A DNA stretch of 32,846 bases from assembly GCA_018224645.1 (NCBI GenBank), contig JAGTVG010000365.1, positions 1 to 32,846 of the forward strand, read 5' to 3'. Both the position numbers and the translations under genes were made by a program. This document shows positions 6,289-27,436 of this stretch, one piece after another; position 1 is the first letter of the stretch; each line of letters starts with the position of its first letter. Below the pieces are notes generated by a model. It saw nothing but the letters and a program-made list of their open reading frames with translations, was not told the origin of the DNA and made no database searches. Source of the stretch: Cyclobacteriaceae bacterium. GTDB taxonomy: Bacteria; Bacteroidota; Bacteroidia; Cytophagales; Cyclobacteriaceae.

Positions 6289-9200
6289 ATGAAATGCAAA
6301 CATTTACAATCTGACAGAGTAAATGCAAAATCCCGGAGATTAAGTTTTCTGACCTTTGTATTTGCCCTGTCTTTCACGAGTATCCTGGCGCAGGAAATAA
6401 CTGTCACAGGAACGGTTACTGATCAACAGGACGGTGCACGTCTACCTGGGGTTAACATCCTGATAGAAGGCACATTATCCGGAACTACCACCAATGCAGA
6501 AGGAACTTATACAATTATAGTCCCTGGCCCGGAGGCAGTTCTGAGTTTTACCTATGTGGGATACAATTCCATAGAAGAAGTGGTCGGGAACAGGTCGGTA
6601 ATCGATGTTGCGATGACGCAGGATATCACACAGCTTTCGGAAGTTGTGGTCACCTCCCTGGGTATTGAGCGGGAAAAAAAGCAGATCAGTTATGCTGCCC
6701 AGAACGTGAGTGCGGATGAACTGGCTGAAGCCAGGGAATCAAATGTAATTAATTCCCTGTCCGGAAAAGTAGCCGGATTGGATGTTGTCAGATCAAGTGC
6801 AGGGGTCGGCTCTGCCTCGCGGGTCGTTCTCCGGGGTAACAGGTCTATTGCAGGCAACAACCAGCCATTGTATATAGTAGATGGCGTTCCGATCAGTAAT
6901 TTTTCATGGGGTACACCCAACAGTGAGAATGGAGGTGTACAGCAGGGCGACGGCATTGGCAATATCAACCCGGACGACATTGCAACGGTTACCGTTTTGA
7001 AAGGGCCTAACGCAACCGCATTATACGGTTCAAGGGCGAACAATGGTGCCATCGTAATCACCACAAAACAGGGTGTGGCAAGAACGGGTATCGGTGTTGA
7101 ATTCAACACTAACTGGTCGATGGATAAAGCCCTGGTCCTTACTGAATTCCAGAATGTATATGGCCAGGGAAACGGCGGAACCTATATTAAAAACAGCGAG
7201 GAAGGATGGGGCCCGGAGATGGAAGGACAGATGGTCGAACACTGGTCTCCCGATCCGAATTGGGCAGGACCGGCTGAATATGCCTACCTCCCCCATGATA
7301 ATTTCAATGACTTTTTCCGGTCAGGTTATAATATTGCCAACACCCTGACGCTGACAGGCGGGGATGACCAGGTGAGAGGCTTATTTTCTTTCACCAACAC
7401 GATCACGGAGGGCATTGTACCCACCAATGGACTTGAAAGAAATAATTTTAACCTGCGTTTCGACGGAAATCTTTCGGATAAATTTTCCTTCGACGCAAAA
7501 GTAACTTATTTCACCCAGACTGTAAATAACAGACTGTCCACCGGCGATGATTTCAACAATCCCATGAGAGCAATCTACAGGCAACCCAGCAACATATCCC
7601 TGGAAGATGCCGAAAATTTTGAATATTTTGACAATGCCGGAATACGCCTTCAGAATTACTGGAACCCGGGAACCAACGGGGGTGAAAACATCTACTGGAT
7701 GTTGAACAGGACCATCCGTGAGGAAAAAAGAGACCGCGTCATCGCCATGGGATCTCTAAAGTACCAGTTTACGGATCATCTTAGCTTAATGGTGCGGACT
7801 TCCCTGGACCAGATTTATGACGTATGGTCCTACAAACAGTATTACAATACTTTTACCATTGCCGATGCCGGAAACCTCAACCTGGATAACAGGAATTCCC
7901 TGGAAACCAATAACGATTTTATATTGAATTATAGAAATATGTGGGGCGGTGATACCTGGTCGCTGACAGCCTCTGTGGGTGGGAACATGTTGTATCAGAA
8001 ATTCGAATCGCTTAATACCAGAACGAACAGGCTTCTAAAGCCCAACCTGTTTGTGATCACGAATACAAGCCAGATCCTTGCCAACCAGGGTGGGTCAGAA
8101 AAAAAGATCCATTCACTTTATGGATTTGCGACCCTTGGCTTTAAAAGCTTTCTGTTTTTAAATGCTACGGCAAGAAATGACTGGTCTTCAACCCTGCCAA
8201 AGGAAAGCTGGTCTTATTTCTATCCGTCAGTTGGCCTGACCTGGGTCATTTCCGACATGCTGAATACACTTCCCCGTTTTCTGTCCGTTGCCCAGATACG
8301 GGCCAATTATGCTGAGGTGGGAAACGATACGGATCCTTACAGGCTTGACAAAACTTATGGTTTTGGTGCCGGTGGCGTCCTGGGTTATGCTTCGAGAAGC
8401 GGTACTTTGCCTGAAGAAAATCTCAAGCCCGAGCGGACCAAATCAACTGAACTGGGATTTTTGCTTAATTTTTTCAACAACCGGCTGGGATTTGATTTTA
8501 CCTGGTACAAATCAAACACAATCAACCAGTTACTGTCTATTCCCTTGCCTCCACCATCCGGATACACGGCTAAATTCATTAATGCAGGCAATGTGCAGAA
8601 CAAGGGGATTGAACTCACCTTAAATGCAACTCCGGTCATTGCAGGTGATTTCCGCTGGGACCTTGCCTTCAATTATGCACAGAATGAAAGTATGGTTGTT
8701 GAACTGACGGATGAACTCGATGAATACACCATCCGCGGCCGCAGCTGGATGACCACGATCAAAGTGGTCGAGGGAGAACCGTATGGACAGATCTTTACCA
8801 GAGGATTTGAAAGGAATGAGGATGGAAGGATATTGATCAATAGCCTCGGTCTGCCTGTTACCAGTCCTGGACAAACCATCCCGATGGGTAATTACAATCC
8901 GGACTGGATGGGAGGACTGTCCAACAGTTTCAGCTTTAAGGGGATCGAACTGAGCGTACTGCTCGATATGCGGATGGGTGGCGAAGTCTTCTCCTTTACG
9001 GAAGCCAACCTTACATTCGATGGTTATTCCGAAGCCACTCTCAATGGAAGAGATGGATTTGTGGTCGATGGGGTAATTGAATTATTGGATGATGAGGGAA
9101 ATGTAACCGGCTATGAAGAAAACACCATCGAAACTACGGCAGAAGCTTACTGGCATGCCCTGGGAGGAAGAAATACGCCCATTGGAGAACCCTACCGCTA

Positions 9201-9438
9201 TGATGCTTCCTATGTGCGGGTACGGGAAGTATTGCTGGGATATACCTGGAATGTCAGATCAACTATATTTCAAAGCATCGGACTTTCACTATACGGTAGA
9301 AATCTGGGATTCCTGCATAACGCTTCGGAGATTATTGATCCGAACATGTCTGTTGGTACAGGCAACGTACAGGGTTTAGAGGGATTTGCCGTACCCAGTT
9401 CAAGAACCTATGGTTTTAATGCAAGGTTCAGATTTTAA
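6289..9438 (+). CDS. SusC/RagA-like TonB-dependent outer-membrane transporter
   Basis: Imports oligosaccharides across the outer membrane using TonB energy, with the SusD-like protein as its lid. The 1049-aa length is typical of SusC homologues. A signal peptide ends near A34 (SILAQ). A carboxypeptidase-regulatory-like domain follows at about 37-115 (VTGTVTDQQDG, GTTTNAEGTY, YVGYNSIEE). The SusC-type linker with TonB-box-like EVVVTSLGIEREKKQ is next. The plug domain at about 130-260 carries the family signatures VVLRGNRSI, PLYIVDGVPI, LKGPNATALYGSRA and GAIVITTKQG. The remainder is a beta-barrel ending in the aromatic terminus FNARFRF. Only a few bases separate its stop from the susD-like gene, so they are almost certainly co-transcribed. 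The substrate cannot be read from the sequence; the neighbouring GH9, GH5 and DUF6259 genes suggest a plant- or algal-type beta-glycan. Confidence 0.95.
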   Translation: MKCKHLQSDRVNAKSRRLSFLTFVFALSFTSILAQEITVTGTVTDQQDGARLPGVNILIEGTLSGTTTNAEGTYTIIVPGPEAVLSFTYVGYNSIEEVVGNRSVIDVAMTQDITQLSEVVVTSLGIEREKKQISYAAQNVSADELAEARESNVINSLSGKVAGLDVVRSSAGVGSASRVVLRGNRSIAGNNQPLYIVDGVPISNFSWGTPNSENGGVQQGDGIGNINPDDIATVTVLKGPNATALYGSRANNGAIVITTKQGVARTGIGVEFNTNWSMDKALVLTEFQNVYGQGNGGTYIKNSEEGWGPEMEGQMVEHWSPDPNWAGPAEYAYLPHDNFNDFFRSGYNIANTLTLTGGDDQVRGLFSFTNTITEGIVPTNGLERNNFNLRFDGNLSDKFSFDAKVTYFTQTVNNRLSTGDDFNNPMRAIYRQPSNISLEDAENFEYFDNAGIRLQNYWNPGTNGGENIYWMLNRTIREEKRDRVIAMGSLKYQFTDHLSLMVRTSLDQIYDVWSYKQYYNTFTIADAGNLNLDNRNSLETNNDFILNYRNMWGGDTWSLTASVGGNMLYQKFESLNTRTNRLLKPNLFVITNTSQILANQGGSEKKIHSLYGFATLGFKSFLFLNATARNDWSSTLPKESWSYFYPSVGLTWVISDMLNTLPRFLSVAQIRANYAEVGNDTDPYRLDKTYGFGAGGVLGYASRSGTLPEENLKPERTKSTELGFLLNFFNNRLGFDFTWYKSNTINQLLSIPLPPPSGYTAKFINAGNVQNKGIELTLNATPVIAGDFRWDLAFNYAQNESMVVELTDELDEYTIRGRSWMTTIKVVEGEPYGQIFTRGFERNEDGRILINSLGLPVTSPGQTIPMGNYNPDWMGGLSNSFSFKGIELSVLLDMRMGGEVFSFTEANLTFDGYSEATLNGRDGFVVDGVIELLDDEGNVTGYEENTIETTAEAYWHALGGRNTPIGEPYRYDASYVRVREVLLGYTWNVRSTIFQSIGLSLYGRNLGFLHNASEIIDPNMSVGTGNVQGLEGFAVPSSRTYGFNARFRF

Positions 9439-9463
9439 TTAATTGGCTAAAGATTATAAATTC

Positions 9464-11011
9464 ATGATCATGAAAATAAAAATAACATCAAAATTTGTTT
9501 TGGCCGGTATGTTGATGGCATTCCTTATCTCCAGCTGTACTGATGATTTCGAGGAAATAAATACCAATGACCGGGTGCTGACTGAACTGGATGCCGCCAC
9601 ATTGGGTAACATGTATGGACGTCTCCAGTATATAGGTTTTTATATGGATTATCACCAGATCTCGCAGAACCTGTTCGCAGATCATTATTGCCAGTATTTT
9701 GCCAATACCCAGAACGCATTCAGTTCTGACAGGTATGTCCTGGTGGGAGGTTGGCTGAATGGAGCATGGAATGCTTTCTACAGTAATATTCCAAATAACC
9801 TGGGCGAGATTCTGGTTGCGACGGATCCTGCTGTTAACCCGGGATTTGAAACTTTACATGCGCTGGCTCAGATCTGGCGTGTAATCGTTTATGAACGTAT
9901 TGCGAATTACTGGGGACCTATTCCTTATTCCCAGGTAAATAATGCCGAACCAAATGTACCGTACGACAGTGAACGCGACATTTACCTGAGTTTCTTCAAG
10001 ACGCTGGATGATGCCCTGGCCATTTTGAACGCAAATCAAGGCGGAAATGCCTTTGGAGCAAATGATCAGATCTATGGGGGCGACATCGACAAATGGATCA
10101 TTTTTGCAAACACGTTGAGACTCCGGATTGCGATGAGGATATCCAACGTGGAGCAAACCATTGCACAGACCGAAGCTGAGAAAGCAGTTACAGCTGGCGT
10201 AATGACGAGCAATGACGATGATGCCATTTTCCAGACAACTGCCAATTCACCGCATAATATGCCCAGGATGGTACCCTGGAATGAATTCCGTATGAGTGCT
10301 GCCATGGAAAGTGTACTGAAAGGGTATGAAGATCCACGGATGGAAGAGTTTTTCTCTCCGGCAGTTACAGATGGAGAATACAGGGGTTTGCGCAACGGAT
10401 ACGAAATCGTTGACCTTGCCAAGCCGGAATTGTTCTATGACAATCTATCCAGGTTAGGACCCAGATGGATCCCTGTTGATGTGCAGAGTACGCTTCCATG
10501 GGAAATCATGCTTTCACCTGAAGCGTATTTCCTGCGGGCAGAAGGCGCCTTGAGGGGCTGGGCTATGGGTGGATCTGCCGAAGAACTCTACAATCTGGGC
10601 ATAGAAAAAAGTATGATATACTGGGGCATAACAGATCCATCCGCTATTGCCGCTTATCAGCAGAGTACAAATGTGCCCATCGCAACCCACGATGCACCGG
10701 TGCCGCTTTCAACAATTCCGGTAAAATATGATCCTGCCGTAGCACTCGAACAGATCATGACACAGAAATGGCTTGGATTGTATCCGGATGGATGGGAAGC
10801 CTGGGCCGAGGTACGCCGCACCGATCTGCCCAGGATGTATCCGAGAATGGCTTCTGAAAATCCGGATGTAGCCCCTGATGAAATGATGCGCAGGGTACAG
10901 TTTGTCAGCGGTGAATATGAAACCAATTCGGAAGCAGTACAGGATGCCTTACAGAAATTAGGAGGACCCGATAAAGGATCCACACGGCTTTGGTGGAATC
11001 CTGCCAATTGA
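9464..11011 (+). CDS. SusD-like (SusD/RagB, SusD-like_2 type) glycan-binding lipoprotein
   Basis: Surface lipoprotein that captures glycan and closes the SusC channel. The ORF extends upstream only to a TTG at 9443; the ATGs at 9464 and 9470 are better starts, and from 9464 the lipobox is LISSC with Cys25 (515 aa). After the Cys comes DDFEEINTND, typical of SusD proteins. The helical TPR-type fold is indicated by IWRVIVYERIANYWGPIPY, DKWIIFANTLRLRIAMRI and the C-terminal QKWLGLYPDGWEAWAEVRRT, all marks of the SusD-like_2 subfamily (PF12771) as I remember it. It directly follows the susC-like gene and is followed by a strong hairpin, so the transport pair forms a two-gene transcription unit. 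Ligand-contact residues cannot be identified without a structure. Confidence 0.93.
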   Translation: MIMKIKITSKFVLAGMLMAFLISSCTDDFEEINTNDRVLTELDAATLGNMYGRLQYIGFYMDYHQISQNLFADHYCQYFANTQNAFSSDRYVLVGGWLNGAWNAFYSNIPNNLGEILVATDPAVNPGFETLHALAQIWRVIVYERIANYWGPIPYSQVNNAEPNVPYDSERDIYLSFFKTLDDALAILNANQGGNAFGANDQIYGGDIDKWIIFANTLRLRIAMRISNVEQTIAQTEAEKAVTAGVMTSNDDDAIFQTTANSPHNMPRMVPWNEFRMSAAMESVLKGYEDPRMEEFFSPAVTDGEYRGLRNGYEIVDLAKPELFYDNLSRLGPRWIPVDVQSTLPWEIMLSPEAYFLRAEGALRGWAMGGSAEELYNLGIEKSMIYWGITDPSAIAAYQQSTNVPIATHDAPVPLSTIPVKYDPAVALEQIMTQKWLGLYPDGWEAWAEVRRTDLPRMYPRMASENPDVAPDEMMRRVQFVSGEYETNSEAVQDALQKLGGPDKGSTRLWWNPAN

Positions 11012-11036
11012 AATGATATTACCTTTTACAGTAAGA

Positions 11037-11068
11037 AAAAAAGACAGGCGTAAATGCCTGTCTTTTTT
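11037..11068. terminator. Rho-independent terminator after the susCD-like pair
   Basis: Perfect 13-bp stem: AAAAAAGACAGGC (11037-11049) pairs with GCCTGTCTTTTTT (11056-11068) around the six-base loop GTAAAT. A T-run follows on the plus strand and an A-run precedes it, so it could work both ways. It lies 25 bases after the susD-like stop and ends that transcript. Confidence 0.9.
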
Positions 11069-11149
11069 AATTTTTAATAAATTGAATCTATTATAAGGGC
11101 AATTATTACTTTTTTAGATCAGGCGGATATTGAAATGCCATGCAACCGG

Positions 11150-14100
11150 ATGAAAAAAGGTCTTTTATATCGCGTTATAATTCTGAGTTTCAGCTTAATC
11201 TTTATTTCCTGCTGTAAACAGAAAGACGAACTTTTTACGCTGATTTCGAATGAACGGACCGGTATAAAATTCAGGAATGTCATTGAGGAAACCGAAAATT
11301 TCAATCACCTGCATTACAGCTATTTATATAATGGAGCAGGAGTATCCATTGGCGATATCAACAATGATGGATTATCTGACATTTATTTTACCGGCAATCT
11401 GGCTGCTTCCCGCCTCTACCTGAACAAGGGAAATTTTAAATTTGAAGACATCACCGCAAAGGCCGGAGTTTCCGCCCGGGAAACATGGAATAACGGGGCG
11501 AATATGGCTGATATCAATGGAGATGGATTCCTCGACATTTATGTCTGCAGTTCGACAGACGGAAGACCTGAATACAGAAAAAACTTGTTGTTTATCAATA
11601 ACGGCGATCTGACTTTTTCAGAGAAAGCCGGGGAGTATGGTATCGATGATGCTGCCTATTCCACACACAGCGCATTTTTTGATTATGACAAGGATGGTGA
11701 CCTGGATCTGTTCACGCTCAATCATTCTGTGGATAGCTATGCCATGTTTAACGAGCGATCGGCCGGTTATAAACATGAACCGAGTGCCAGATACGGACAT
11801 AAACTCTTCAGGAATGACGGGGCTTTCTTTACAGAGGTAACCAGGGAAGCAGGCATCATCTCCAATGTCATCAATTTCGGACTTGGAATTGCGGTAGCGG
11901 ATTTTAACAATGATCGCTGGCCCGATATTTATATCTGCAACGATTATTATGAACAGGATTATCTGTTTATTAATCAGAAAGACGGGACCTTTTCAGAACA
12001 ACTGGAAGAATATTTCAGCCATGTATCCTTTTCTTCGATGGGCTGTGATGCCGCGGATATCAACAATGATGGCTATATTGATCTTTTTACCCTCGATATG
12101 CTTCCGGAAGATAATATTGAACAAAAACTTGTGGAAGGGCCGCATAATTATGAAAAATTCAAATTGCTTGAAACGAGAGGTTTTTATCATCAAACAACCC
12201 GGAATATGCTGCAATTGAACAATCATGGGAAGTATTTTACGGAGATTGGTCAGTATGCCGGGGTGTTCAGCACCAATTGGAGCTGGTCGCCCCTGCTGTT
12301 CGATTATGACAATGATGGATTGAAGGACATTTTTATAACCAATGGATATGGCAAGAACAATACCCATATGGACGTAATAATGATGCTTGTTGAAGACGCC
12401 GTGGTACAGCAAAGGGGAGGACAAGGTATGAATGATATAGATTTTGTCAACCAGGTTCCCCCTACCATATTAAAGAATTACATGTTCAGAAATAATGGAG
12501 ACCTCACATTTTCCGATGTTAAGGATCAATGGGGATTCGATAAAAAAACGCTTTCAAACGGGGCAGCTTACGGCGATCTGGACAATGACGGTGATATGGA
12601 CCTGGTGATCAGTAACGTCAACGATTACGCTTTTGTCTATAGAAACAATTCGGACAAAATTACAGGAAACCATTACCTGAAAATAAAACTGATTGGAAGT
12701 GGTTTCAATACAGGCGGAATCGGGGCGCGGATCGATATCACCTGCAAGGACCGGGTTTATACACAGGAATTTATGCCGTCACGGGGATATATGTCGTCCA
12801 TGGATCATGCGATCATCTTTGGATTGGGTAGCGCTACCCATGTAGATACACTCAGGATCATCTGGCCTGACTTACGTGTGCAGGAAATCACCAACATTGA
12901 AGCCGGCCAGGTGATTACCCTTAAAAATGAAAATGCTTATCAAAAAGAGCTTCAGGACCCATCACCACATGATCAGATTTTCAGGGCGTTGCATGGAGAT
13001 ACACTGGGTAACTTTAAACATCAGGAAAATGATTACAACGATTTCAGGGACCAGCCGTTACTTCCCTATCTGCTCTCTACACAGGGACCATTCCTGGCAA
13101 AAGGAGATGTGGATAACGATGGACACGAAGATATTTTTATAGGTGGATCAAAAGGTTTTCCTGGAAAATTATACATCCATGATGGTAACGGCAGTTTTGA
13201 ACAACAGGAAATGACATGTTTTGAAAAGGATGCAACATGTGAGGATCTTGGTGCACGCTTCATTGATGTGGACATGGATAAGGATCTTGATCTTTATGTG
13301 GTCAGTGGAGGTAATGAATTTACAATTTCTTCTTCTAACCTGCAGGACCGTTTGTATCTCAATGATGGCAAGGGATCATTTTCAAAAGCCGAAAATCATC
13401 TGCCTGAAATGATATCAAGCGGATCCTGTGTTAAATCCGCCGATATGGATAATGATGGGGATCCCGACCTGTTTATCGGCGGAAGACTGACTCCTGGTTT
13501 ATATCCCATAGCCCCAAGAAGCTATCTTTTGGAGAATGATGGAAAAGGGCATTTCAGGGATGTGACCAAAATTAAAAATGAGGGCCTGGAATATCCGGGA
13601 ATGGTAACCGATGCAATCTGGGCCGATATCAACGGTGATGGTTTCCCGGATCTCATACTGGTGGGTGAATGGATGCCTGTGAGGATATTCCTGAATACAG
13701 GTTCAGAATTTCATGAGATCATGGATCAGAAATTGATGGAAAATTCATTCGGATGGTGGAACAGGATCGTTTCCGCTGATTTTGACCAGGATGGAGATCC
13801 TGATTTTGTTCTTGGAAATTTTGGATTGAATTCTGAGCTTAGCGCGTCAGTCGGCGAACCTGTCCGCATCTATGCCCAAGATTTCGACAATGATGGATCA
13901 CTTGATGCCGTGATAGGCCATTATAACAATGGTAAAAATTATCCGATCTATTCAAAGGATGATCTGGCCGCTAAGATAAATGGTATACATGATAAATATC
14001 CTGATTATAAATCCTATGCGGATCAAACAATTTCTGATATTTTTTCAGAAGAAGCCCTTCAGAAAGCCCTGGAATTGAAAGCCACCAATTTCAGCAGCAG

Positions 14101-14467
14101 TTACCTTGAAAATAAGGGCAACAATCAGTTTGAACTTACTTCGTTACCCATGCAGGCACAATTATCTCCGGTTTATGGAATTCAGACAGGAGATTTCAAT
14201 CAGGATGGTCATCTGGATCTGATACTTGCTGGTAATTTTTATGGTTTCAGGATCAAATTTGGACATTATGATGCCAATAAGGGATTACTTCTTTTGGGAG
14301 ACAGGCATGGTAATTTTAAGGAAGTTCCTAATCATGTGAGCGGATTATTACTTGATGGGGAAGTGCGTGACATAAAAATGATTAATTTGTCCCCAGATAA
14401 GGATATGTTGATTTTTTTACTTAATAATGATCATGCTCAGTTTTATGAATTCAATCATATCAAGTAG
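11150..14467 (+). CDS. Large FG-GAP/VCBS-repeat lipoprotein with ASPIC/UnbV domain (CRTAC1-like)
   Basis: Predicted surface lipoprotein of 1105 aa; biochemical role unknown. The ATG at 11150 gives a compact signal peptide with lipobox FISC (Cys21); an in-frame ATG at 11135 is possible. I count 14 calcium-loop motifs of the D-x-[DN]-x-D-G-x-x-D type (for example DINNDGLSD, DYDKDGDLD, DFNQDGHLD; two have the G or spacing altered), spread over two beta-propeller-like blocks. Between them, at about 520-590, is an ASPIC/UnbV domain (GGIGARI, FMPSRGYMSS, IIWPDLRVQEI). This architecture is frequent near susCD genes in Bacteroidota, where a carbohydrate- or protein-binding role is usually assumed. 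It follows the susCD terminator and precedes the 257-aa lipoprotein by six bases, so those two are probably an operon and may act together. Confidence 0.85.
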   Translation: MKKGLLYRVIILSFSLIFISCCKQKDELFTLISNERTGIKFRNVIEETENFNHLHYSYLYNGAGVSIGDINNDGLSDIYFTGNLAASRLYLNKGNFKFEDITAKAGVSARETWNNGANMADINGDGFLDIYVCSSTDGRPEYRKNLLFINNGDLTFSEKAGEYGIDDAAYSTHSAFFDYDKDGDLDLFTLNHSVDSYAMFNERSAGYKHEPSARYGHKLFRNDGAFFTEVTREAGIISNVINFGLGIAVADFNNDRWPDIYICNDYYEQDYLFINQKDGTFSEQLEEYFSHVSFSSMGCDAADINNDGYIDLFTLDMLPEDNIEQKLVEGPHNYEKFKLLETRGFYHQTTRNMLQLNNHGKYFTEIGQYAGVFSTNWSWSPLLFDYDNDGLKDIFITNGYGKNNTHMDVIMMLVEDAVVQQRGGQGMNDIDFVNQVPPTILKNYMFRNNGDLTFSDVKDQWGFDKKTLSNGAAYGDLDNDGDMDLVISNVNDYAFVYRNNSDKITGNHYLKIKLIGSGFNTGGIGARIDITCKDRVYTQEFMPSRGYMSSMDHAIIFGLGSATHVDTLRIIWPDLRVQEITNIEAGQVITLKNENAYQKELQDPSPHDQIFRALHGDTLGNFKHQENDYNDFRDQPLLPYLLSTQGPFLAKGDVDNDGHEDIFIGGSKGFPGKLYIHDGNGSFEQQEMTCFEKDATCEDLGARFIDVDMDKDLDLYVVSGGNEFTISSSNLQDRLYLNDGKGSFSKAENHLPEMISSGSCVKSADMDNDGDPDLFIGGRLTPGLYPIAPRSYLLENDGKGHFRDVTKIKNEGLEYPGMVTDAIWADINGDGFPDLILVGEWMPVRIFLNTGSEFHEIMDQKLMENSFGWWNRIVSADFDQDGDPDFVLGNFGLNSELSASVGEPVRIYAQDFDNDGSLDAVIGHYNNGKNYPIYSKDDLAAKINGIHDKYPDYKSYADQTISDIFSEEALQKALELKATNFSSSYLENKGNNQFELTSLPMQAQLSPVYGIQTGDFNQDGHLDLILAGNFYGFRIKFGHYDANKGLLLLGDRHGNFKEVPNHVSGLLLDGEVRDIKMINLSPDKDMLIFLLNNDHAQFYEFNHIK

Positions 14468-14473
14468 TTTAAA

Positions 14474-15247
14474 ATGCAGAAATACCACATTTTTTTATTC
14501 ACAGTTCTTCTGATACTATGTTCATGTAAAAAATCCCCGGAAAGGGATCTTTCTCTCAGCGTGGAGGAATACAAAAAACTTGGCATGGCGGATCCGACGA
14601 GAACCTGGAAACATGAGGATTACCGGCAGGCGTATGTCGTTTTATCCCAACTGAGATCAGATCGGCCGGGTGCGCTGCCCAGGAAAGGGAGTAATAAATC
14701 AGGAAAGTATTTTGATCGATTGATCAGCATGGACAATATTTCATTTCTCAAGGATGATGCAATGCCCTTAATGGAAAAAGCAATGCAAATACAATCCTAT
14801 ATACTGATTCAAAGTGATCTGACTGGTATATATACCAATGAAAATAGCCAGGATCAATTTTATAACCGGGAATTGATTGAATTGTATCTGTTCGGGCTTT
14901 CCATCATGGAGCAAATGCTGCAGCTTTCGCAAAAAATAAATGAATCTGATGAGGAGGAAGTTATCCGGATGCAGACAGGATTACCAACCCTGCGATTCAC
15001 ATACCTGACTCAGGTGGCATTTATTCTTGAAAAACAGAAAAATTCTTCAACCTACCTTACAAAAGACCTGGAAAGGCTTACAGACAGCCTATACAATTCA
15101 GTGGTGAAAAACAGGATATGGATGGAAGCTTCCACACGGGCCAATCTGGAAAAACAAATGCTGGTCGTCATGGATTCAGTATCATCAAAACATGTCAGAA
15201 ATAAATATGAGAACCTGATAGAAATATTATCGAAAGATCCTTCCTGA
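14474..15247 (+). CDS. Hypothetical helical lipoprotein, partner of the VCBS/ASPIC protein
   Basis: Not recognised by name. The 257-aa protein has a short lipoprotein signal (MQKYHIFLFTVLLILCSC) with possible lipid-bearing Cys at 16 or 18. The rest is soluble and predominantly helical, with alternating hydrophobic positions and no repeats or catalytic motifs that I can identify. Segments such as ELIELYLFGLSIMEQMLQL and YLTKDLERLTDSLYNSV look amphipathic. The ATG lies six bases after the stop of the FG-GAP/ASPIC gene, so co-translation is likely. Similar small lipoproteins following VCBS proteins are familiar in Bacteroidota, which suggests a conserved two-gene module (from memory, not checked). 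Last gene of the plus-strand block. Confidence 0.7.
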   Translation: MQKYHIFLFTVLLILCSCKKSPERDLSLSVEEYKKLGMADPTRTWKHEDYRQAYVVLSQLRSDRPGALPRKGSNKSGKYFDRLISMDNISFLKDDAMPLMEKAMQIQSYILIQSDLTGIYTNENSQDQFYNRELIELYLFGLSIMEQMLQLSQKINESDEEEVIRMQTGLPTLRFTYLTQVAFILEKQKNSSTYLTKDLERLTDSLYNSVVKNRIWMEASTRANLEKQMLVVMDSVSSKHVRNKYENLIEILSKDPS

Positions 15248-17096: not shown

Positions 17097-18965
17097 CTAT
17101 TCCTTCCCATGCTTGCCTGTCTCCCGTTCCTCCCATCCGCTTCTGCCCTCGTCCATGAATATTTCAACCACCGTTTTAGAAACCCTGTCATCCACTTCCT
17201 CAACCAGCTGAACACGCAACGGATGGGTCAGGCGTCGCTGCCATTCAAGCACCGGTGCATAGGGTTCGTTTCCCTGAGCAATTTCATAAATAAGATAAGC
17301 CCATTTTTCTGAAAATACACTGCCCTTCAATGCGGGAACTACCTGCTGCATATTGGACGATAAAAAAGGATGGGAAAGGCCGCGTGCCCAGTAGATCCAG
17401 GGTCCGCCGGTAATATAAAAAAATGGGTTCAACAGACGTGTTCTTGATTCAATGCCTGCATTCGCATAACCCAGCTGTATTCCGGCGAAACCTATTCCCG
17501 TCTCTTCGTTGAAGAATGTGATCCATGGAACATCGGCTTCCATTTTTATATCCGTCAGGTCCGGCATGGTACTGACATTGTATGTGATGATTGAATCCCT
17601 TACGATATCATACCACGATGCATGGGTCATCAGTTCGCGTTTGAACACGATCTCGGCATTCCTCATGGCCAGGCAATTCACGGTTTCATTGATCCGCATG
17701 CAGGTGGAGCTGATAAAATAGGGCATTCCCGGATAAAACTCATACCTCACCGAAGCATCCACCTCGGGCACTCCCCTCAGATGATCCCACATTTCATTGG
17801 TGGCAATGACAGGTCCGGCCACCGAATTGATATTAGCCGGAGGTTTCCAGTCTGCGGTGTGGGTCCATGCCCTGGGCGGTACATAGATCCCCGGATTCCA
17901 GTGAATGGCCCCATTGGTTTCCATCCGGTGGAACAAGGGCTCACCGGGTTTACTTTTCAGAACAATCTGGTCGAGGTGTCCCGATTCGGGATGCAACACA
18001 ACAGAGATCTGATTATTTTCAATGAGCATTCCGGGACGCTCTCCCTGTACCCTCAGGTCGGTCTGATACGTTTTGGCCATTGCATCTTCATTGCCATAGT
18101 AGATTAAAAATACACGGCTTGATTTCGCCGGGACGCTGGCCAGAAAGGCAACCCGGGAAGTGACGGTCGGCATCCACAAGGGTACCTCCCTCGTGGGGTC
18201 CCCACTTTCATCAGGGGCTAGATCATCCTCCTCCAGGAATTTCTGAATGTCATATACCTGGGATGCAACCTCCTCCAGTGCGTGTGTCCCGGGGTTTACA
18301 GCAACCACGCGGATCTCGCGGGTCAGATGCAGCGCTTCATCGGGATAAAAAGCGAGGAGTACTTCCACGGGTTCGTCAGTCCGGTTGATCCCGGCTGTTT
18401 CACTGACTACCACCGATTTATACTTTGGCCATGCCTCATCAAAGACTTCGGCTCCCGAAGGTGCGGTCACTTTTCTTTCCGCGGCTATAATGATATCATC
18501 ATTCGAAGCATGGACCGACTTCTTCATCCGGACAGACAACTTTACCGTATAGGTTTGACCCGGCTGCCATTTCACCCATCCGATCACATGCGGATTTTTA
18601 TAATGGGTACCATCCTGCGACATGCTGTATCCTGAGGGTGGACGCTCGGAAAGCGGTGGTTTGCTCAGATTTTCCACCTCATCTTCCCGGCGGAGTTCAG
18701 TAGCCCGGAGTACTTTACCATCTACGGCTGCTTCCACTTCGATGATCGAAGATTCCGGCAATTCCAGTTCTGCCTTAAAGTGATAAAAAGGGATCCCCGG
18801 AGCGGGGTATCCGAGTTCAATTTCCCTGATGTGCAATTCCCCGCCACCCCTTGTCCTTTGCGCTTCAAGGGAATGATTTACGAACAGTGAAATTACAAGG
18901 ATCAGGCTCATGCATGATGTTGTTCCTGATCCGTTTCCCATAATCCTGGATATAAAATTTGCCAT
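17097..18965 (-). CDS. Exported protein of unknown function with mutarotase-like beta-sandwich
   Basis: Not recognised. The 622-aa protein has a signal peptide (hydrophobic LILVISLFV, cleavage near LEAQ); ATGs at 18941 or 18911 are also possible starts. Residues about 40-180 look like Ig-like beta-strands (FYHFKAELELPESSIIEVEA, YTVKLSVRMKK). At about 270-285, PAKSSRVFLIYYGN resembles the end of a beta-sandwich found before large carbohydrate-active domains. From about 300, the pattern LIENNQISVVLHPESGHLDQI followed by VRYEFYPGMPYFISS and NAEIVFKRELM resembles the galactose-mutarotase-like super-sandwich present in many polysaccharide lyases and GH families. Aromatic residues are abundant (WNPG, WTHTADWKPP, GGPWIYWARG). 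The tail (GRSGWEERETGKHGKE) is low in complexity. It follows the 886-aa gene by 59 bp and probably shares its transcript. A carbohydrate role is inferred. Confidence 0.65.
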   Translation of the reverse strand: MANFISRIMGNGSGTTSCMSLILVISLFVNHSLEAQRTRGGGELHIREIELGYPAPGIPFYHFKAELELPESSIIEVEAAVDGKVLRATELRREDEVENLSKPPLSERPPSGYSMSQDGTHYKNPHVIGWVKWQPGQTYTVKLSVRMKKSVHASNDDIIIAAERKVTAPSGAEVFDEAWPKYKSVVVSETAGINRTDEPVEVLLAFYPDEALHLTREIRVVAVNPGTHALEEVASQVYDIQKFLEEDDLAPDESGDPTREVPLWMPTVTSRVAFLASVPAKSSRVFLIYYGNEDAMAKTYQTDLRVQGERPGMLIENNQISVVLHPESGHLDQIVLKSKPGEPLFHRMETNGAIHWNPGIYVPPRAWTHTADWKPPANINSVAGPVIATNEMWDHLRGVPEVDASVRYEFYPGMPYFISSTCMRINETVNCLAMRNAEIVFKRELMTHASWYDIVRDSIITYNVSTMPDLTDIKMEADVPWITFFNEETGIGFAGIQLGYANAGIESRTRLLNPFFYITGGPWIYWARGLSHPFLSSNMQQVVPALKGSVFSEKWAYLIYEIAQGNEPYAPVLEWQRRLTHPLRVQLVEEVDDRVSKTVVEIFMDEGRSGWEERETGKHGKE

Positions 18966-19024
18966 TGATGATATCTTTTATTTTGCCGAATCTGATTCAG
19001 TAAATTGATTTTCTGTATTAATAT

Positions 19025-21685
19025 TTATCTTGTTGAAATAAGATTCCTGTCCCTTAACGCATTTACACCATTTTCCCAGGGTCCGCCGGCTCCCCAGATA
19101 TAATAGGAAAAATACATGGTACTTTTCTGATAAATGGGCGTCCAGGGCTGGAATTCAGCATAATAATGGTGTGCATCATTATTCACCGGGTGATTCATCC
19201 ACATATGGAGGAACAAAGGCTGGGTCACAGGAAATGCGCCCACGAAAGTGATGTCTTCCATGGTGTCATAACCGGCATTCCATCCTTCCTTCATATGAAA
19301 TACCCGCCCATAATACCTTTCCGGTTTCATCCTGTATTCGGACAAACCATCCAGCTCTGGTATGATAAATACATCCTCCGTCCAATGCCGGTTGCCGAGC
19401 TCCAGGATGGGCTGGGGCCCAAGTACATTGGCTTCCGGATTCTTAAAGGTCAGGGCAAACCGTACCTCCAGTAAAGGGGAATTCCCATACAATGTGAATG
19501 TTTTCTCCAGCCGGTTACCAAAATAATCGGCTGCCATTTTTACCCTTACGAAATCGCCTTCCTTTCGTACAATTTCTGCATCATAAACCTTATGGGTTTC
19601 CATGCTCCCCTGCCCCAGGAAATCTTCAAATCCTCCATAGGGATAATATCCCCGTTTTCTGAATTCCCGCCTGTCGTCCACGGCTTTTTCCGGCCAGAGC
19701 TTAAACAATACATTGTCATTCCGGGATTTTACAATGTATTCAATCACCCTGGCGCCTGTGGCCAGCAGGGTCACCTGCACACTGTCATTTTCCATACGGT
19801 ATTCCATAACCCCATCACTGTTCAGGTCAACTTCATATACGTATGGCCTTCCCGAAGCTTTCCCAACCCCCAGTTGACCACTTTGTGTTACCCCGAGGGC
19901 GGATACATTCACCTGGTAATTGCCTGCGGGTAATTTGATGTCAAATGCCATATTTTTGTAAGTACCGACTGGAGCCGAACAGGTTTGCCTGTTTTTTAAT
20001 ATCACTTTGCCCTGCTTGTTCATATCAAGGACTTCCAGTTGTACGGGGAAAGGTTCTCCGGATGAAAAATTATGGATGGTGACCGGATAGGTCATCTGGG
20101 AAGCATGATCATAAAGCAGTTGATGAACCGATACGACAGGAGGAAGGTCCAGCATGGTCAGTGTACTTTTTTTCGAGGTTTCCCATTGATAATGAACGGC
20201 AATGGGATTGGTTCCGTCCATGGCATCAGCAGACGGTTTGATGGGGTATGATAATGTTTTTGAACTGTTTGCCGGCAATATCAATTCGAAGGACAAACCG
20301 GCATCCATGCTGAGTTCAGGGGACAAAACAATTTCCAGTTTTCCTTTCAGGGGATGCTGATAGAAATTGGTAATGGTCAGGTTCATCTGATAATTATCCA
20401 TTTCCGCTTCCAGGCTTACTTTATCCCCGAAATACTCCTCGAGATAGGCCCGGTCCAACAGCAACATTTCAAGTGTATTCCGATACAAGGCGGGCCCCAT
20501 CATTTTTCCCATTTCCAGAACGGCCACTTCCCTTCGGCTGAGAATAGCTTCCCACATGGTATCATTGGTTAACCGGTCCCCTTTATTCAGGAAAAGCACC
20601 ATGCAGTTGGACGCATCTCTGTCAAGTTGACCTGTTGAGGAAACAAATGGCACCTCCTCCTGATCAATCTGTTCCTTATTGCCTTCCCCGGCCAGATAAC
20701 CGTGGTATTGAAACGGATCAGCCAGGGTGTCGAAAACATCCCTGAAAATATAGCCGCCCTTGCTATGGGCATAATCGATCCATGATTCTTTTGTGAACAA
20801 ACTCTGTACCTGCAATCCTTCGTAATCCCTGCAACCGTAAATGGGCGAAAAACCAACATCCGAAACTATGGGAAGATTTACCCTCGTCAGCCAGTCCTTC
20901 AATTCATCCTTTGCCAGGAAATCCATATATCCATCGAATACAAACCATGTATTCCCTTCATTCATGCCTTTGCCCATCACTTCCAGGGGATGACCGGCGG
21001 TACAGGTGACACTTTTCAAAAGGGTCTTCACGCCGAACCACCCACGGTGGAGGTCATATTTATTCACCACATCGATTGTATTCTCGATGAGGAGTTGCAC
21101 TTTCTCAATTGCCTCCCTGTTTTCAGCGGATATAACAAAGATCCTCCGTCCCTCATTTTCCAGGTAGAATGCATCTACCGCACTGTAATCTACGGCAAAT
21201 AGCTGGTGACTCTTAAGTTTTTCATTCCCGGATAGATCGTCCGGATATTTTTCCATAAGTACTTTCCCGGCATCTGAGACCGGGTCAAGGAGAACCAGTA
21301 CATTATTTTCTTTTATCCGATCTTCCAGTTCCTGAATGGTGGGTTGATCCAGCATTTCATACGGTTCAGAAAGGAGCCCGGCTATAAATCCTTCCTGCAT
21401 CTTCAGTCCCGGAACGCCCATATCGTCTGCAAGATCCCTTTTGCTCTGCGCAATGGTCATTGGGATATTGGAATTCGCCATCTTAAAAAGATTTCCATAA
21501 CGTATCCATTCCCGGTAAATGTCGTGCCAGTAGTTGGTGTATCCGTTGAACTGAAAATTGTTATGGATCGTATTTTCCATGATCCGGGATGGTGCCTGAG
21601 TCCTGAAATCGGCTAACCTCTGTGCGGATAAAAAATTTACGGATATGGATGCTGTTAAAAAAATGATAAAAAATAATGTTTTCAT
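19025..21685 (-). CDS. Large exported protein of unknown function, multi-domain with mutarotase-like C-terminus
   Basis: Not recognised. The 886-aa reading starts at the ATG at 21685, giving a classical signal peptide MKTLFFIIFLTASISVNFLSAQ; an ATG seven codons upstream (21706) adds a poor N-terminus. Residues about 25-430 contain alternating strand/helix segments (NNVLVLLDPVSDAGKVLM, RRIFVISAENREAIEKVQLL, NTWFVFDGYMDF, MVLFLNKGDRL) that look like a globular alpha/beta or TIM-like domain. About 440-630 holds two Ig-like beta-domains (LEIVLSPELSMDAG, YQVNVSALG). About 640-886 has the same style of super-sandwich as the next gene (EYRMENDSVQVTLLATGARV, KTFTLYGNSPLLEVRFALTF). The end is rich in Trp/Tyr (YFSYYIWGAGGPWENG). 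Paired with the 622-aa gene 59 bp downstream. I infer a carbohydrate-processing or binding role. Confidence 0.65.
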   Translation of the reverse strand: MKTLFFIIFLTASISVNFLSAQRLADFRTQAPSRIMENTIHNNFQFNGYTNYWHDIYREWIRYGNLFKMANSNIPMTIAQSKRDLADDMGVPGLKMQEGFIAGLLSEPYEMLDQPTIQELEDRIKENNVLVLLDPVSDAGKVLMEKYPDDLSGNEKLKSHQLFAVDYSAVDAFYLENEGRRIFVISAENREAIEKVQLLIENTIDVVNKYDLHRGWFGVKTLLKSVTCTAGHPLEVMGKGMNEGNTWFVFDGYMDFLAKDELKDWLTRVNLPIVSDVGFSPIYGCRDYEGLQVQSLFTKESWIDYAHSKGGYIFRDVFDTLADPFQYHGYLAGEGNKEQIDQEEVPFVSSTGQLDRDASNCMVLFLNKGDRLTNDTMWEAILSRREVAVLEMGKMMGPALYRNTLEMLLLDRAYLEEYFGDKVSLEAEMDNYQMNLTITNFYQHPLKGKLEIVLSPELSMDAGLSFELILPANSSKTLSYPIKPSADAMDGTNPIAVHYQWETSKKSTLTMLDLPPVVSVHQLLYDHASQMTYPVTIHNFSSGEPFPVQLEVLDMNKQGKVILKNRQTCSAPVGTYKNMAFDIKLPAGNYQVNVSALGVTQSGQLGVGKASGRPYVYEVDLNSDGVMEYRMENDSVQVTLLATGARVIEYIVKSRNDNVLFKLWPEKAVDDRREFRKRGYYPYGGFEDFLGQGSMETHKVYDAEIVRKEGDFVRVKMAADYFGNRLEKTFTLYGNSPLLEVRFALTFKNPEANVLGPQPILELGNRHWTEDVFIIPELDGLSEYRMKPERYYGRVFHMKEGWNAGYDTMEDITFVGAFPVTQPLFLHMWMNHPVNNDAHHYYAEFQPWTPIYQKSTMYFSYYIWGAGGPWENGVNALRDRNLISTR

Positions 21686-21733
21686 AATGATGTTTTCTAT
21701 CAACATTTTGTACGCTTCAATTTAAGGATTTTT

Positions 21734-22379: not shown

Positions 22380-25076
22380 TCACAAAGTCAGGTCCACTGC
22401 CGAGCCTATCACCTCCGTCCTCAGGCCGGGATCATTGTCCAGCATAATCACCACGACATAGGGCATATCCGGATCAATTATCTTTAGTTTAAACTGCACT
22501 TCCCCCGGACCATTACCGGAAAGATCTGCCGATTTTACATCCTCATCAGCCGCAGCATTGAAGGTTCGCAAAAGTACTTCATGCTTGCCTTTCCCATTAA
22601 GGGTAACCAGAACCGTCACTTCCTGACCCGACCGTTCGGATCCTGCCCGGAACTGTATCTCTTCCTCATCCTTCTCCGCAACGGCAGACGGCTCAGCGAA
22701 GGAAGTATAGACCGACAACGCACCCAGGAAACGGTTAACTGGTTCGACCCAGATTTCCTTGTGGGTGGCATTGTTGGTGGCCGACCAGTACGGTTGGTCA
22801 CCGGACAGGCAATCCATGCCTACCGGAAGGGAGCCGACAATATTTTTCAGGCAGTAGGCAAAATGCGGGGCAAAATCATAGCCCAAGCCATACATCAGGC
22901 TTTGCCCGAACGGATTGGCCCCAAGCACCCATTCCATCTGTTTCTGAACAAGCCCGATCCCATCCGCGTCATTCCGCAGCCGGGCAGCTTCGGCCAGTGC
23001 CCATGCACTTGACATCTGAATATTTGTATTCCCATGGAAAAGGTTGTCCCGGTAAATCGGGAATGTCCGGAGTACATATTCCTCGTTCAGTTTTGTACTT
23101 TCCTCAAATTGCCTCATCATATCCGTCCGCCGGTCTTCTTCCTTCACGGAGAGGATCTCAGATCTTTTCCATACCGAATTGGGCAGATGTCCGTAAGGCT
23201 CAGCGATCCTGCTGCCCCGTTTCATGAAGAATTCACTGTGCAGTGCGGCGGCACTATACCATTGCATCCAGTCTTCATGACCAGGAAATTCCCGGCAAAG
23301 CATGGTCAGGGCAATCAGCGGGGCTTCTTCGAAAGCGGCATGGTGATTGTGGATTACATGGTTTCGTTCCGTACTGGTATAGAAATAACCTGTGATGGGT
23401 ATGCCGTCCACAAATCGCTGTTCCTGGCACTGGATTAATAGCCGGCCGAAACGGATGGCCTGATCAATGTATTTCTCATCCCCAGTCATCCGGCTCAGCT
23501 GGATCGAGGATGTAGCCCCCCAGGCGGCCTCGCGGTAATCAGCGCGGTCCCGGGAATTCATCGAATCGACAGCTGCCTGCCAGTCCTCCAGGGAAGCAAT
23601 GCGTGACTGTTCAGCAAGTTCCGGATGAGAATTTTTCAGCATAACGGCAGCCTGGCACTGAACAGCCGCTGTGAGGAAGTTTTCCCAGGGAATGTTCCGT
23701 GCGGGAGAAACCACATCATCGATGGTCCCCACTTCATTATCGGTATAGATCCGCATGACACTGAAGCTCATATGATATCCATCCCCGAAACGGGTCTTCA
23801 GGAGATACTGCAATCCCCAGGCGATTTCCTCCCGTATCCGTCCGGCCAATTCCGCCTGAATCCCTGCCTGCTCCAGATTTTCCAGGTTCAGCATCATGGC
23901 ATAGGCAGACATAGCGGTCCGCCAGGAACCCTGGGATAGATCACCTGCATCATGCCAGCCACCATTGATGATCTTTTTTGTTTCGCCATAAAATCCCTGC
24001 CAGTCCTTGTGACATTCCAGGTGAATTCCAGGCACAGCATATCCGCAACGCTGACAGAAGAAAAAATTAACCGCTTTAAACAGTGGCTGAACCCAGACCT
24101 GGTCCTCAATCGGGAAAGGATTGGATTCAAGGTTACCGGTCCGCAGACGGAATTCACCGGTTCCTTCATAACCTGAAAAATCAAGCATCCGGAACATACC
24201 CTGCTCATTCCGGACAACCTGTACCTCGCCATTAAAGACCGCATTCCCGTCCCTGCCGATCAACTGGAAACTTCCCCCTGCACCCTCACCCACCATGGCT
24301 ATTTTCTGCTCTGACGGGCGGTAACCCGCATGGTTGAAGGCAAATTTTTCGGGTGCCACCTCCCATCCTTCGTACTGGTCACCGTCCACGAGCTGGATCT
24401 CGAGCTGGTCAATATCGTAAGTGACAATGCCCTCTTCTTCCGGGTGATGGCCTGTAAGCATCTGGTTGATCCTGAAAGCAGTGACCTTATCCCGTTTCAA
24501 ATGGTGTATCTCGTACATGACATGGTTCCACTGGCCTGGCTTCAGGTCATGAACGAAATGTGATTTACCGGGATAGGCAGCGTTATATATGGAACCTTCA
24601 CAGTCAAATGAAAGATAAATACAATAGGTGGGCATATCGGCAGGATGAACATATATCCAGAAAGAGATCCGGTTGAAGTCCGACCAGTTCTGTGGTTCTT
24701 TGAATGGAAGTTCCACGAATGACCGGCCGCCCTGGGTTCCATTGAAGGAATCCCATTCACTTCGGTTCTGCCGGTAATGCTCTTCATCGCGAAGGGAAGT
24801 ACGGAAACGCAGGGATTGACCGCCATCCCGTGCCCTGTCGGTGATATAACTCATTTCCCCGATGCCGGTCACCTGCCAGCCGGCAGGCTGTTCCATGTCA
24901 TCAATCAGACGGGTCTGATGAACAGTTTTTTTCTCCCAGGCTGACATCAGAGCATTTGCCTCAGGGACATCAAGCGGAAATGCTGCCAGAGCAACCTCCT
25001 TTTGAGTTTCTTTAACCGGGGAGGAGCATGAGAAAACAAGGATCATGCTCAGGATATAAAGGATAAAATTCTTCAT
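22380..25076 (-). CDS. Glycoside hydrolase family 9-type lipoprotein (second GH9)
   Basis: Probable surface beta-glucanase of 898 aa. The signal ends in a lipobox (LVFSC, Cys17). Its domain order matches the GH9 protein at 429-3338: a CBM/CIA30-like beta-sandwich at about 50-235 (DDMEQPAGW, GGQSLRFRT, RISFWIYVH, YDIDQLEIQ), an Ig-like CelD_N domain (NHAGYRPSEQKIAM) and the (alpha/alpha)6 GH9 domain. NGGWHDAGDLSQG carries the catalytic Asp pair D376/D379, ANPFGQS is the late family motif, and E774 in THKEIWV is the likely general acid. Its C-terminal region lacks the regulatory-like insert seen in the first protein but ends similarly (IIDPDMPYVVVIML against ILNPEMPWVAVVIP). The two are clearly paralogues yet well diverged. 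Just upstream is the 20-bp hairpin at 25119-25161. An in-frame open stretch follows its stop codon. Confidence 0.87.
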   Translation of the reverse strand: MKNFILYILSMILVFSCSSPVKETQKEVALAAFPLDVPEANALMSAWEKKTVHQTRLIDDMEQPAGWQVTGIGEMSYITDRARDGGQSLRFRTSLRDEEHYRQNRSEWDSFNGTQGGRSFVELPFKEPQNWSDFNRISFWIYVHPADMPTYCIYLSFDCEGSIYNAAYPGKSHFVHDLKPGQWNHVMYEIHHLKRDKVTAFRINQMLTGHHPEEEGIVTYDIDQLEIQLVDGDQYEGWEVAPEKFAFNHAGYRPSEQKIAMVGEGAGGSFQLIGRDGNAVFNGEVQVVRNEQGMFRMLDFSGYEGTGEFRLRTGNLESNPFPIEDQVWVQPLFKAVNFFFCQRCGYAVPGIHLECHKDWQGFYGETKKIINGGWHDAGDLSQGSWRTAMSAYAMMLNLENLEQAGIQAELAGRIREEIAWGLQYLLKTRFGDGYHMSFSVMRIYTDNEVGTIDDVVSPARNIPWENFLTAAVQCQAAVMLKNSHPELAEQSRIASLEDWQAAVDSMNSRDRADYREAAWGATSSIQLSRMTGDEKYIDQAIRFGRLLIQCQEQRFVDGIPITGYFYTSTERNHVIHNHHAAFEEAPLIALTMLCREFPGHEDWMQWYSAAALHSEFFMKRGSRIAEPYGHLPNSVWKRSEILSVKEEDRRTDMMRQFEESTKLNEEYVLRTFPIYRDNLFHGNTNIQMSSAWALAEAARLRNDADGIGLVQKQMEWVLGANPFGQSLMYGLGYDFAPHFAYCLKNIVGSLPVGMDCLSGDQPYWSATNNATHKEIWVEPVNRFLGALSVYTSFAEPSAVAEKDEEEIQFRAGSERSGQEVTVLVTLNGKGKHEVLLRTFNAAADEDVKSADLSGNGPGEVQFKLKIIDPDMPYVVVIMLDNDPGLRTEVIGSAVDLTL

Positions 25077-26353: not shown

Positions 26354-27391
26354 TCATATGCATGAATATGTTTTATCCGGGTCCATGGCATGCCCCCAGC
26401 CCAGGATCTCTTCATTCTCCAGGGATGGAATCACTTTCAGGAAACCTGATTCCACGAGCCCTCCCACCTGGAAGTAAACCGCATCGACATCAGAATGCGT
26501 TTCATCCGGAAAATGGGCAAATCCGCCATCGGGTTTGCGGCATGTAAGGATCCAGTCCGTTGCCTTTTTAAAAGCCTTCTTCACCCCAGGATCTTTTTGG
26601 TCGGCCAGCTGGCGGAGAATGAACAGGGCATCGAAACAGGCATGAACATCCCAATCCGGCTCATGGAGATGCCACGATCCGTTTTCCTGCTGGTCACGGA
26701 GCACCCGGCTGATCATAACTTCCGCTTTTGGTGTTGGCTCCCCGGCCAGCCGGAAATAATGGGCGGCATGAAATGTGGCCGCTACATGATCCTGAAGATA
26801 TCCGTCATCCTGCTGTTCCCCGATAATGTATCCCCGCATCTTTTTATTAATGTTTTCCGGCATCTTCTCCCCGAGTGCACAGAAAAACAGCGGGAAAAAA
26901 CTGGTTGTATACAGGGGTAATTCCGTAAACTCCTTGCTGTCAAAAAAATAATCGATCACGGGCATCGGATCGTACTTCGGTCTCTCATCCATAAGCCGTA
27001 AGGCAACCACACTTTGAACCGTATTATATAGCCTGGCGAGCGGGGCTTGCATATCCATGCTCCCCGTAGGAGCATAAAAAGCCCCATCAGGCTGCTGGCA
27101 GGATATAAAAAACTCCCTGGTCTCATCGGGATAGCGAAGTTCCCATCCAAAGGTCCTGCTGAGAATGGTGGCATAGGTGGGTGCGGCAATCCCCGATAAA
27201 CCGGTATCAGATTTCCCCGGATAGGCAGGATCAATACCGGGCCGGAAAGATCCATCCGGGTTGGCCACCTTGTGCAAAAAATCCTGCACGCCTTTCAATA
27301 CTTCAGGATTGTTTCTGAAACCCGGATAAAACCCAAATGAGAGGCCACCCGCGCACATTAATGTGTGTATGATGAAATTCCTTCGTTCCAT
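26354..27391 (-). CDS. Alpha/alpha-toroid (prenyltransferase/squalene-oxidase-repeat-like) exported protein
   Basis: Function unknown; the fold is an alpha/alpha barrel. From the ATG at 27391 the protein has 345 aa and starts MERRNFIIHTLMCAGGLSFG, a Tat-like leader; an ATG 15 codons upstream (27436) would hide it. Repeated helix pairs are joined by QW-like motifs: NPDGSFRPG, QQPDGAFYAP, QQDDGYLQDH, QQENGSWHLHEPDWD and RKPDGGFAHFPDETHSDVDAVYF. These are the hallmark of the squalene/oxidosqualene-cyclase and prenyltransferase toroid superfamily (Prenyltrans repeats). The DXDD motif of cyclases is absent; VHACFDAL and SDVDAVYF are the nearest acidic clusters. Export and placement next to GH5 and GH9 genes make a terpenoid role unlikely and suggest glycan binding or cleavage by an alpha/alpha toroid (inference). 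Hairpin directly after its stop. Confidence 0.72.
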   Translation of the reverse strand: MERRNFIIHTLMCAGGLSFGFYPGFRNNPEVLKGVQDFLHKVANPDGSFRPGIDPAYPGKSDTGLSGIAAPTYATILSRTFGWELRYPDETREFFISCQQPDGAFYAPTGSMDMQAPLARLYNTVQSVVALRLMDERPKYDPMPVIDYFFDSKEFTELPLYTTSFFPLFFCALGEKMPENINKKMRGYIIGEQQDDGYLQDHVAATFHAAHYFRLAGEPTPKAEVMISRVLRDQQENGSWHLHEPDWDVHACFDALFILRQLADQKDPGVKKAFKKATDWILTCRKPDGGFAHFPDETHSDVDAVYFQVGGLVESGFLKVIPSLENEEILGWGHAMDPDKTYSCI

Positions 27392-27436
27392 ATGTTTATT
27401 TTTAAATTTTGTATAGTTATTCCTCCCGGATTGCAT

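Follow-up and report, generated by a model that had tools for sequence, protein, structure and literature searches.

P893 and P622, two exported protein families encoded side by side in Bacteroidota and possibly acting together on glycans

The closest described relatives of the proteins considered here are known enzyme and module families. The galactose-mutarotase-type supersandwich is the fold of galactose mutarotases and YeaD-like proteins, and it also serves noncatalytic modules, such as the periplasmic domain of YidC. GH38 enzymes combine an alpha/beta catalytic part with a beta-sandwich half, and the PL26 exo-rhamnogalacturonan lyases carry a helical (alpha/alpha) toroid as well as a beta part. 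Two further families come into the comparison, namely AmyA-gluTrfs_C (PF09095), the C-terminal sandwich of GH57 glucanotransferases, and DUF4861 (PF16153), for which we know of no function. Polysaccharide utilization loci also hold many conserved proteins that have so far been given no function. Here, we describe two adjacent genes, encoding the proteins P893 and P622, in a 32,846-nucleotide stretch of Cyclobacteriaceae DNA (the window); the pair stays constant from genome to genome while the hydrolases beside it change.

Both genes lie on the reverse strand, 59 bp apart. P622 (17097 to 18965) encodes an exported, nearly all-beta protein of 622 residues, as judged from the open reading frame list, the alignment, and AlphaFold, and P893 (19025 to 21685) encodes an exported protein of four parts. 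The initial annotation had reported two consecutive exported reading frames with this spacing, and their places, the 59 bp, and the signal peptides were all confirmed. It had also given the larger protein 886 residues; an ATG at 21706 would give 893, but the second ATG, at 21685, is the likelier start because a canonical signal peptide (MKTLFFIIFLTASISVNFLSAQ) begins there. The signal peptides of the two proteins are cleavable, with AQ-type sites, and are not of the lipoprotein type, as is also the case in many homologs; judging from these sequences, P893 and P622 are probably periplasmic or secreted proteins rather than lipoproteins. Both reading frames are intact and conserved, with mean column identities of 60% for P893 (67 homologs) and 70% for P622 (36 homologs), and we therefore take them to be real genes. 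The description of the proteins as rich in aromatics did not hold: F, W, and Y make up 12.0% and 9.5% of their residues, which is ordinary against the 9 to 13% of other proteins in the window.

As had been proposed, neither protein falls into a recognized family. Searches with single sequences and with profiles against Pfam, NCBIfam, and PDB sequences returned nothing significant, and the CAZy families with a solved member, which the PDB profile search covered, gave no match to either protein. Literature searches found no paper on P893 or P622, and no confident match to a characterized noncarbohydrate family arose. A tblastn search of plasmids with P622 gave no match, and a viral fold library yielded only low-TM, tail-fiber-like Ig matches. 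The idea that the two genes are a simple duplication was rejected, as profile comparison found no homology between them.

The AlphaFold model of P893 (pLDDT 89.7, pTM 0.88) begins with an alpha/beta domain at residues ~35 to 430 (20417 to 21604, reverse strand), mostly at a pLDDT of >90, which agrees with the initial view of the N-terminal 400 residues as a separate domain. This domain has no Pfam or PDB sequence relative, and none of the best 50 matches listed for the whole chain in Foldseek clearly belongs to it. Within it, E105, which follows a strand, is invariant, and D283, R322, D335, and D348 are nearly so. A GH57 or GH38 catalytic barrel was rejected as its identity (hhalign at most ~0.5%; no Pfam match). 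Two Ig-like domains follow at residues ~431 to 618 (19853 to 20416, reverse strand), which are all beta in the AlphaFold model and have Foldseek matches to Ig-bearing proteins, such as beta-galactosidases and complement C3.

The remainder of the chain, residues ~619 to 893 (19028 to 19852, reverse strand), is modeled mostly at a pLDDT of 75 to 97 and shows the supersandwich fold. On the strength of this model, we assign it as a probable galactose-mutarotase-type sandwich, which has its fold in common with GalM, YeaD-like proteins, and the periplasmic domain of YidC (3k25, 1jov, 3dcd, 4bze, and 3bs6; TMt 0.54 to 0.61). In contrast to these proteins, P893 has no Pfam sequence match, bears a signature of its own (RxxxxYPYGGFEDFLGQ), and places alpha/beta and Ig-like domains ahead of the sandwich. 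Membership in the galactose mutarotase enzyme family was rejected, since the Aldose_epim profile went unmatched in a Pfam search of 67 members. AmyA-gluTrfs_C gave weak matches at the start of the sandwich in 54 of the 67 members (best E 6.7e-4; in the window protein, the match spans ~40 residues and lies below the Pfam cutoff), whereas hhalign of P893 against GH57 proteins gave nothing. DUF5107 was rejected as a relative of the C terminus (hhalign 1.5%, P 0.03), and so was DUF4838/GH67N as a relative of P893, by profile comparison. Conservation across the 67 proteins peaks in the sandwich, with a mean column identity of 77% versus 56% in the N-terminal domain; positions conserved in ≥97% of homologs number 88 of 275 in the former and 47 of 401 in the latter. 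The motif R683...YPYGGFEDFLGQ-S-E-H705 (19592 to 19660, reverse strand) is invariant or nearly so in the 67 homologs and is a candidate ligand-binding or active cleft.

The P622 model is also nearly all beta, with a low-to-moderate confidence (pLDDT 72.2) and disagreement among the five models. It comprises N-terminal beta domains at residues ~36 to 304 (18054 to 18860, reverse strand; moderate AlphaFold confidence) and a C-terminal supersandwich at residues ~305 to 590 (17196 to 18053, reverse strand), delimited by Foldseek matches to GH38 and PL26 and by hhalign matches to GH38. AlphaFold and Foldseek accordingly bear out, within the confidence of that model, the earlier suggestion that both proteins end in mutarotase-like sandwiches. 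The three best Foldseek matches of P622 are GH38 alpha-mannosidases (E 1.9e-11, TMq 0.40), and PL26 (5xq3 and related structures) matches over ~535 columns (E 1.9e-9); because the query is all beta, these matches must lie in the beta parts of GH38 and PL26. When the P622 profile is extended with distant relatives, hhalign pairs residues ~268 to 491 with Bacteroidota GH38 proteins (probability 93.9; E 1.6e-7 for one comparison), while the profile without the distant Aminicenantes relatives reaches only 8%. Among seven control profiles, DUF4861 scored 34.6, and the remaining six scored at most 0.8.

By fold and profile, then, P622 aligns with the C-terminal half of GH38 (PF07748 plus flanking beta domains; 3lvt, 5kbp, and 2wyh); Foldseek and hhalign find this relation, and the Pfam model itself does not. 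The GH38 catalytic domain (PF01074), which bears the metal site, has no Pfam match at E of ≤1 in the window protein. We conclude that P622 is a free-standing protein related to the beta-sandwich half of GH38; lacking the catalytic domain, it is not a GH38 enzyme. Unlike GH38, it has neither the catalytic barrel nor the helical domain, and its invariant HWNP...WxHxxDW is its own; unlike PL26, its model has no helical toroid, and no sequence match to PL26 was found. The relation to GH38 suggests that one half of an established glycosidase architecture can exist as a protein by itself. DUF4861 matched 1 of 36 P622 homologs weakly (E 0.023) and the extended profile at 34.6% (E 4e-4), and P622 was rejected as a member, given that these matches fall below the Pfam threshold and that DUF4861 differs in size (~400 residues). 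The P622 signature, H355-W-N-P...W367-x-H369-x-x-D372-W373 (17847 to 17903, reverse strand), is a candidate active or binding site that is kept in Aminicenantes relatives at ~30% identity.

Those distant relatives, found by profile search, often occur as two tandem paralogs, and most keep R435-N-E438, W481, Y525, and R528 in addition to the H355-W-N-P, W367, H369, D372, and W373 positions. In one Aminicenantes genome (G313; L128:4089-12374), two tandem paralogs sit with a GH106 rhamnosidase and an FGGY sugar kinase, and a PfkB (KDG-type) kinase and a KDPG aldolase lie beyond the rhamnosidase. This is a possible rhamnose/uronate catabolic cluster, in which the GH106, the aldolase, and the kinases point to glycans that contain rhamnose or uronate. 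Beside other distant relatives lie a sodium:solute symporter and more kinases of the FGGY type. For the substrate of P622 itself, rhamnosidase and hexuronate-catabolism genes near its distant relatives offer a hint only. Another relative (L132:3688-4959), next to an abhydrolase/AXE1-like gene, has a degraded signature (HMWAP, with no WxHxxDW) and is possibly a noncatalytic offshoot. In one Aminicenantes genome, a 1,274-residue frame takes in a distant P622 and resembles a fusion, which was rejected; the region is 72% GC, and the frame is an open-frame artifact.

How regularly do the two genes travel together? A scan of genome contigs found 76 loci encoding P893 homologs; the survey was anchored on P893, and P622 without P893 is undersampled in it. 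The P893 homologs come from many Bacteroidota families (best segments 43 to 81% identical) and from Aminicenantes/Acidobacteriota (43 to 53% over long matches), and the 36 P622 homologs share 63 to 73% identity with the P622 of the window. Of the 65 Bacteroidota loci with room downstream, 52 have P622 as the next gene after P893, in the same orientation, so that the pairing, first noted in the window, is conserved in other genomes. The median gap is ~20 bp and the spacing is usually ≤60 bp, often with an overlap or a few bases, and the pair is probably cotranscribed. Among genomes with no adjacent pair, five further ones have P622 elsewhere. The divergences of P893 and P622 are correlated (Mantel r 0.70 versus a maximum of 0.15 in 999 permutations), in a comparison where phylogeny was not controlled and to which host ancestry contributes. 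P893 is commonly single copy per genome, and tandem copies occur in about nine loci; at L009:9935-21668, one P622 comes after three P893 copies in tandem, which share ~60% identity with the P893 of the window. Across 297 genomes sampled evenly over the phylum, the window's own genome was the only one with a close homolog of either protein, and the pair is therefore rare and accessory; the other genomes sampled from the window's family are without it.

The genes around the pair vary. SusC-like genes occur in 26 of the 76 loci, and the gene just upstream of P893 encodes SusD in 10, most with the order SusC-SusD-P893-P622. CBM9-like genes are found in 15 of the 76 loci, 13 times directly after P622. 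Genes for DUF4838/GH67N, GH29, GH92, GH78, DUF5107, and GFO/IDH/MocA proteins appear in 5 to 9 loci each, GH2 is also among the neighbors, and GH95, GH106, GH20, GH116, and GH3 lie near P893 in single or few loci. The glycoside hydrolases are so heterogeneous that no single substrate emerges. Within the window, Pfam identifies two GH9 genes and one GH5 gene, as first annotated; the esterase reported with them is of the AXE1/abhydrolase type at an E of ~1e-3 to 4e-3 only. The GH9 and GH5 genes were rejected as functional partners, since relatives of them occur in 0 of the 76 loci, and the cellulase-like neighborhood of the window is therefore local. A co-occurrence of the pair with susCD and GH9 had been suggested as a point to check, and the survey supports it for susCD and not for GH9. 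Separately, a conserved protein of ~990 residues with no Pfam match lies near a GH78 gene in four loci (L011, L021, L030, and L062; e.g., L062:18202-21186).

In total, we give slightly better than an even chance to a reading in which P893 and P622 are two new exported families that form an adjacent, coinherited pair and act jointly on glycans in the Bacteroidota periplasm. In this model, the glycan material would often be brought in by a SusC/SusD pair, and each sandwich would bear a sugar-binding, probably catalytic, cleft: in P893, around GGFEDFLGQ...H705, and in P622, around HWNP...WxHxxDW together with R435/N436/E438 and Y525/R528. The two proteins would act on one oligosaccharide, either in sequence or as a complex, and the reaction could be hydrolysis, elimination, or epimerization. 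Both proteins have invariant polar and aromatic residues of the kind common at sugar sites, and these clusters support an active site, although homology assigns no role to any one residue. Also weighing against this reading are the use of the mutarotase-type fold by noncatalytic modules, the heterogeneity of the neighboring hydrolases, the limited confidence of the P622 model, and the Aminicenantes genomes in which P893 is unlinked to any close P622 and, in several cases, lies outside sugar loci. The original proposal that the two are candidates for undescribed carbohydrate-active proteins gains from the predicted folds and the pairing, and a carbohydrate activity of the pair would be consistent with both. 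The candidate active-site residues are clear, which makes the pair a tractable target for the discovery of a novel enzymatic activity or of a shared glycan-handling step.

Could the pair instead handle glycans without cleaving them? In an alternative that we regard as unlikely but of real weight, both proteins are exported glycan-binding or chaperone-like accessories that hold oligosaccharides for variable neighboring hydrolases. Such a role would suit a constant pair among differing hydrolases, the frequent placing of a CBM9-like gene next after it, the absence of a known catalytic motif from either protein, and the place of the nonenzymatic YidC domain among the best Foldseek matches to the P893 sandwich. 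However, the mean identity of that sandwich is far above what is usual for binding modules, the H, D, E, and R residues of P622 are kept down to ~30% identity in a manner typical of active sites, and P893 contains a large unassigned alpha/beta domain.

Joint action on glycans by P893 and P622 can also be cast in a stricter form, which we consider improbable: the two would be an obligate two-subunit carbohydrate-active enzyme, in which a GH38-like half has split off with its own active-site signature and is partnered by an alpha/beta-Ig-mutarotase protein. If so, two new CAZy families would be found in one module, spread across Bacteroidota. A related alternative, slightly more doubtful, locates catalysis at the N terminus of P893, in its alpha/beta domain, with P622 supplying a GH38-C-like beta half in trans as in a split glycosidase. 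The resemblance of P622 to only the beta-sandwich half of GH38, the conserved E105, D283, R322, D335, and D348 of the 400-residue P893 domain, and the adjacency of genes that usually occur one each all fit this proposal; against it, P893 has a sandwich of its own, profile comparison does not relate its N-terminal domain to GH38 or GH57, and Aminicenantes P893 occurs without a close P622. Least probable is a noncarbohydrate or cell envelope role (e.g., peptide or glycolipid handling) with sugar loci incidental, which the diverse contexts, including transglutaminase-like, peptidase, or housekeeping genes adjoining the pair in some loci, and the often single P893 copy per genome would allow, but which the SusC-like, CBM9-like, and glycoside hydrolase neighbors and the sugar-enzyme folds predicted for both proteins argue against.

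The rest of the window holds several features in their own right. The GH9 proteins, at 429 to 3338 and 22380 to 25076 on opposite strands, each have ~240 N-terminal residues with no assignment, followed by the CelD_N Ig domain. Positions 26354 to 27436 (reverse strand), which lie between the genes for GH5 and the CN-hydrolase, encode a 360-residue protein with a prenyltransferase/squalene-cyclase-type alpha/alpha toroid (Pfam 1.4e-12, over part of the model), which may be a toroid-type glycan enzyme and has no relative in the 76 loci. Finally, a forward-strand cassette at 6289 to 15247 encodes SusC, SusD, an FG-GAP/ASPIC protein, and a 257-residue orphan, and it recurs in part beside P893 at three of the surveyed loci (L005, L026, and L069).
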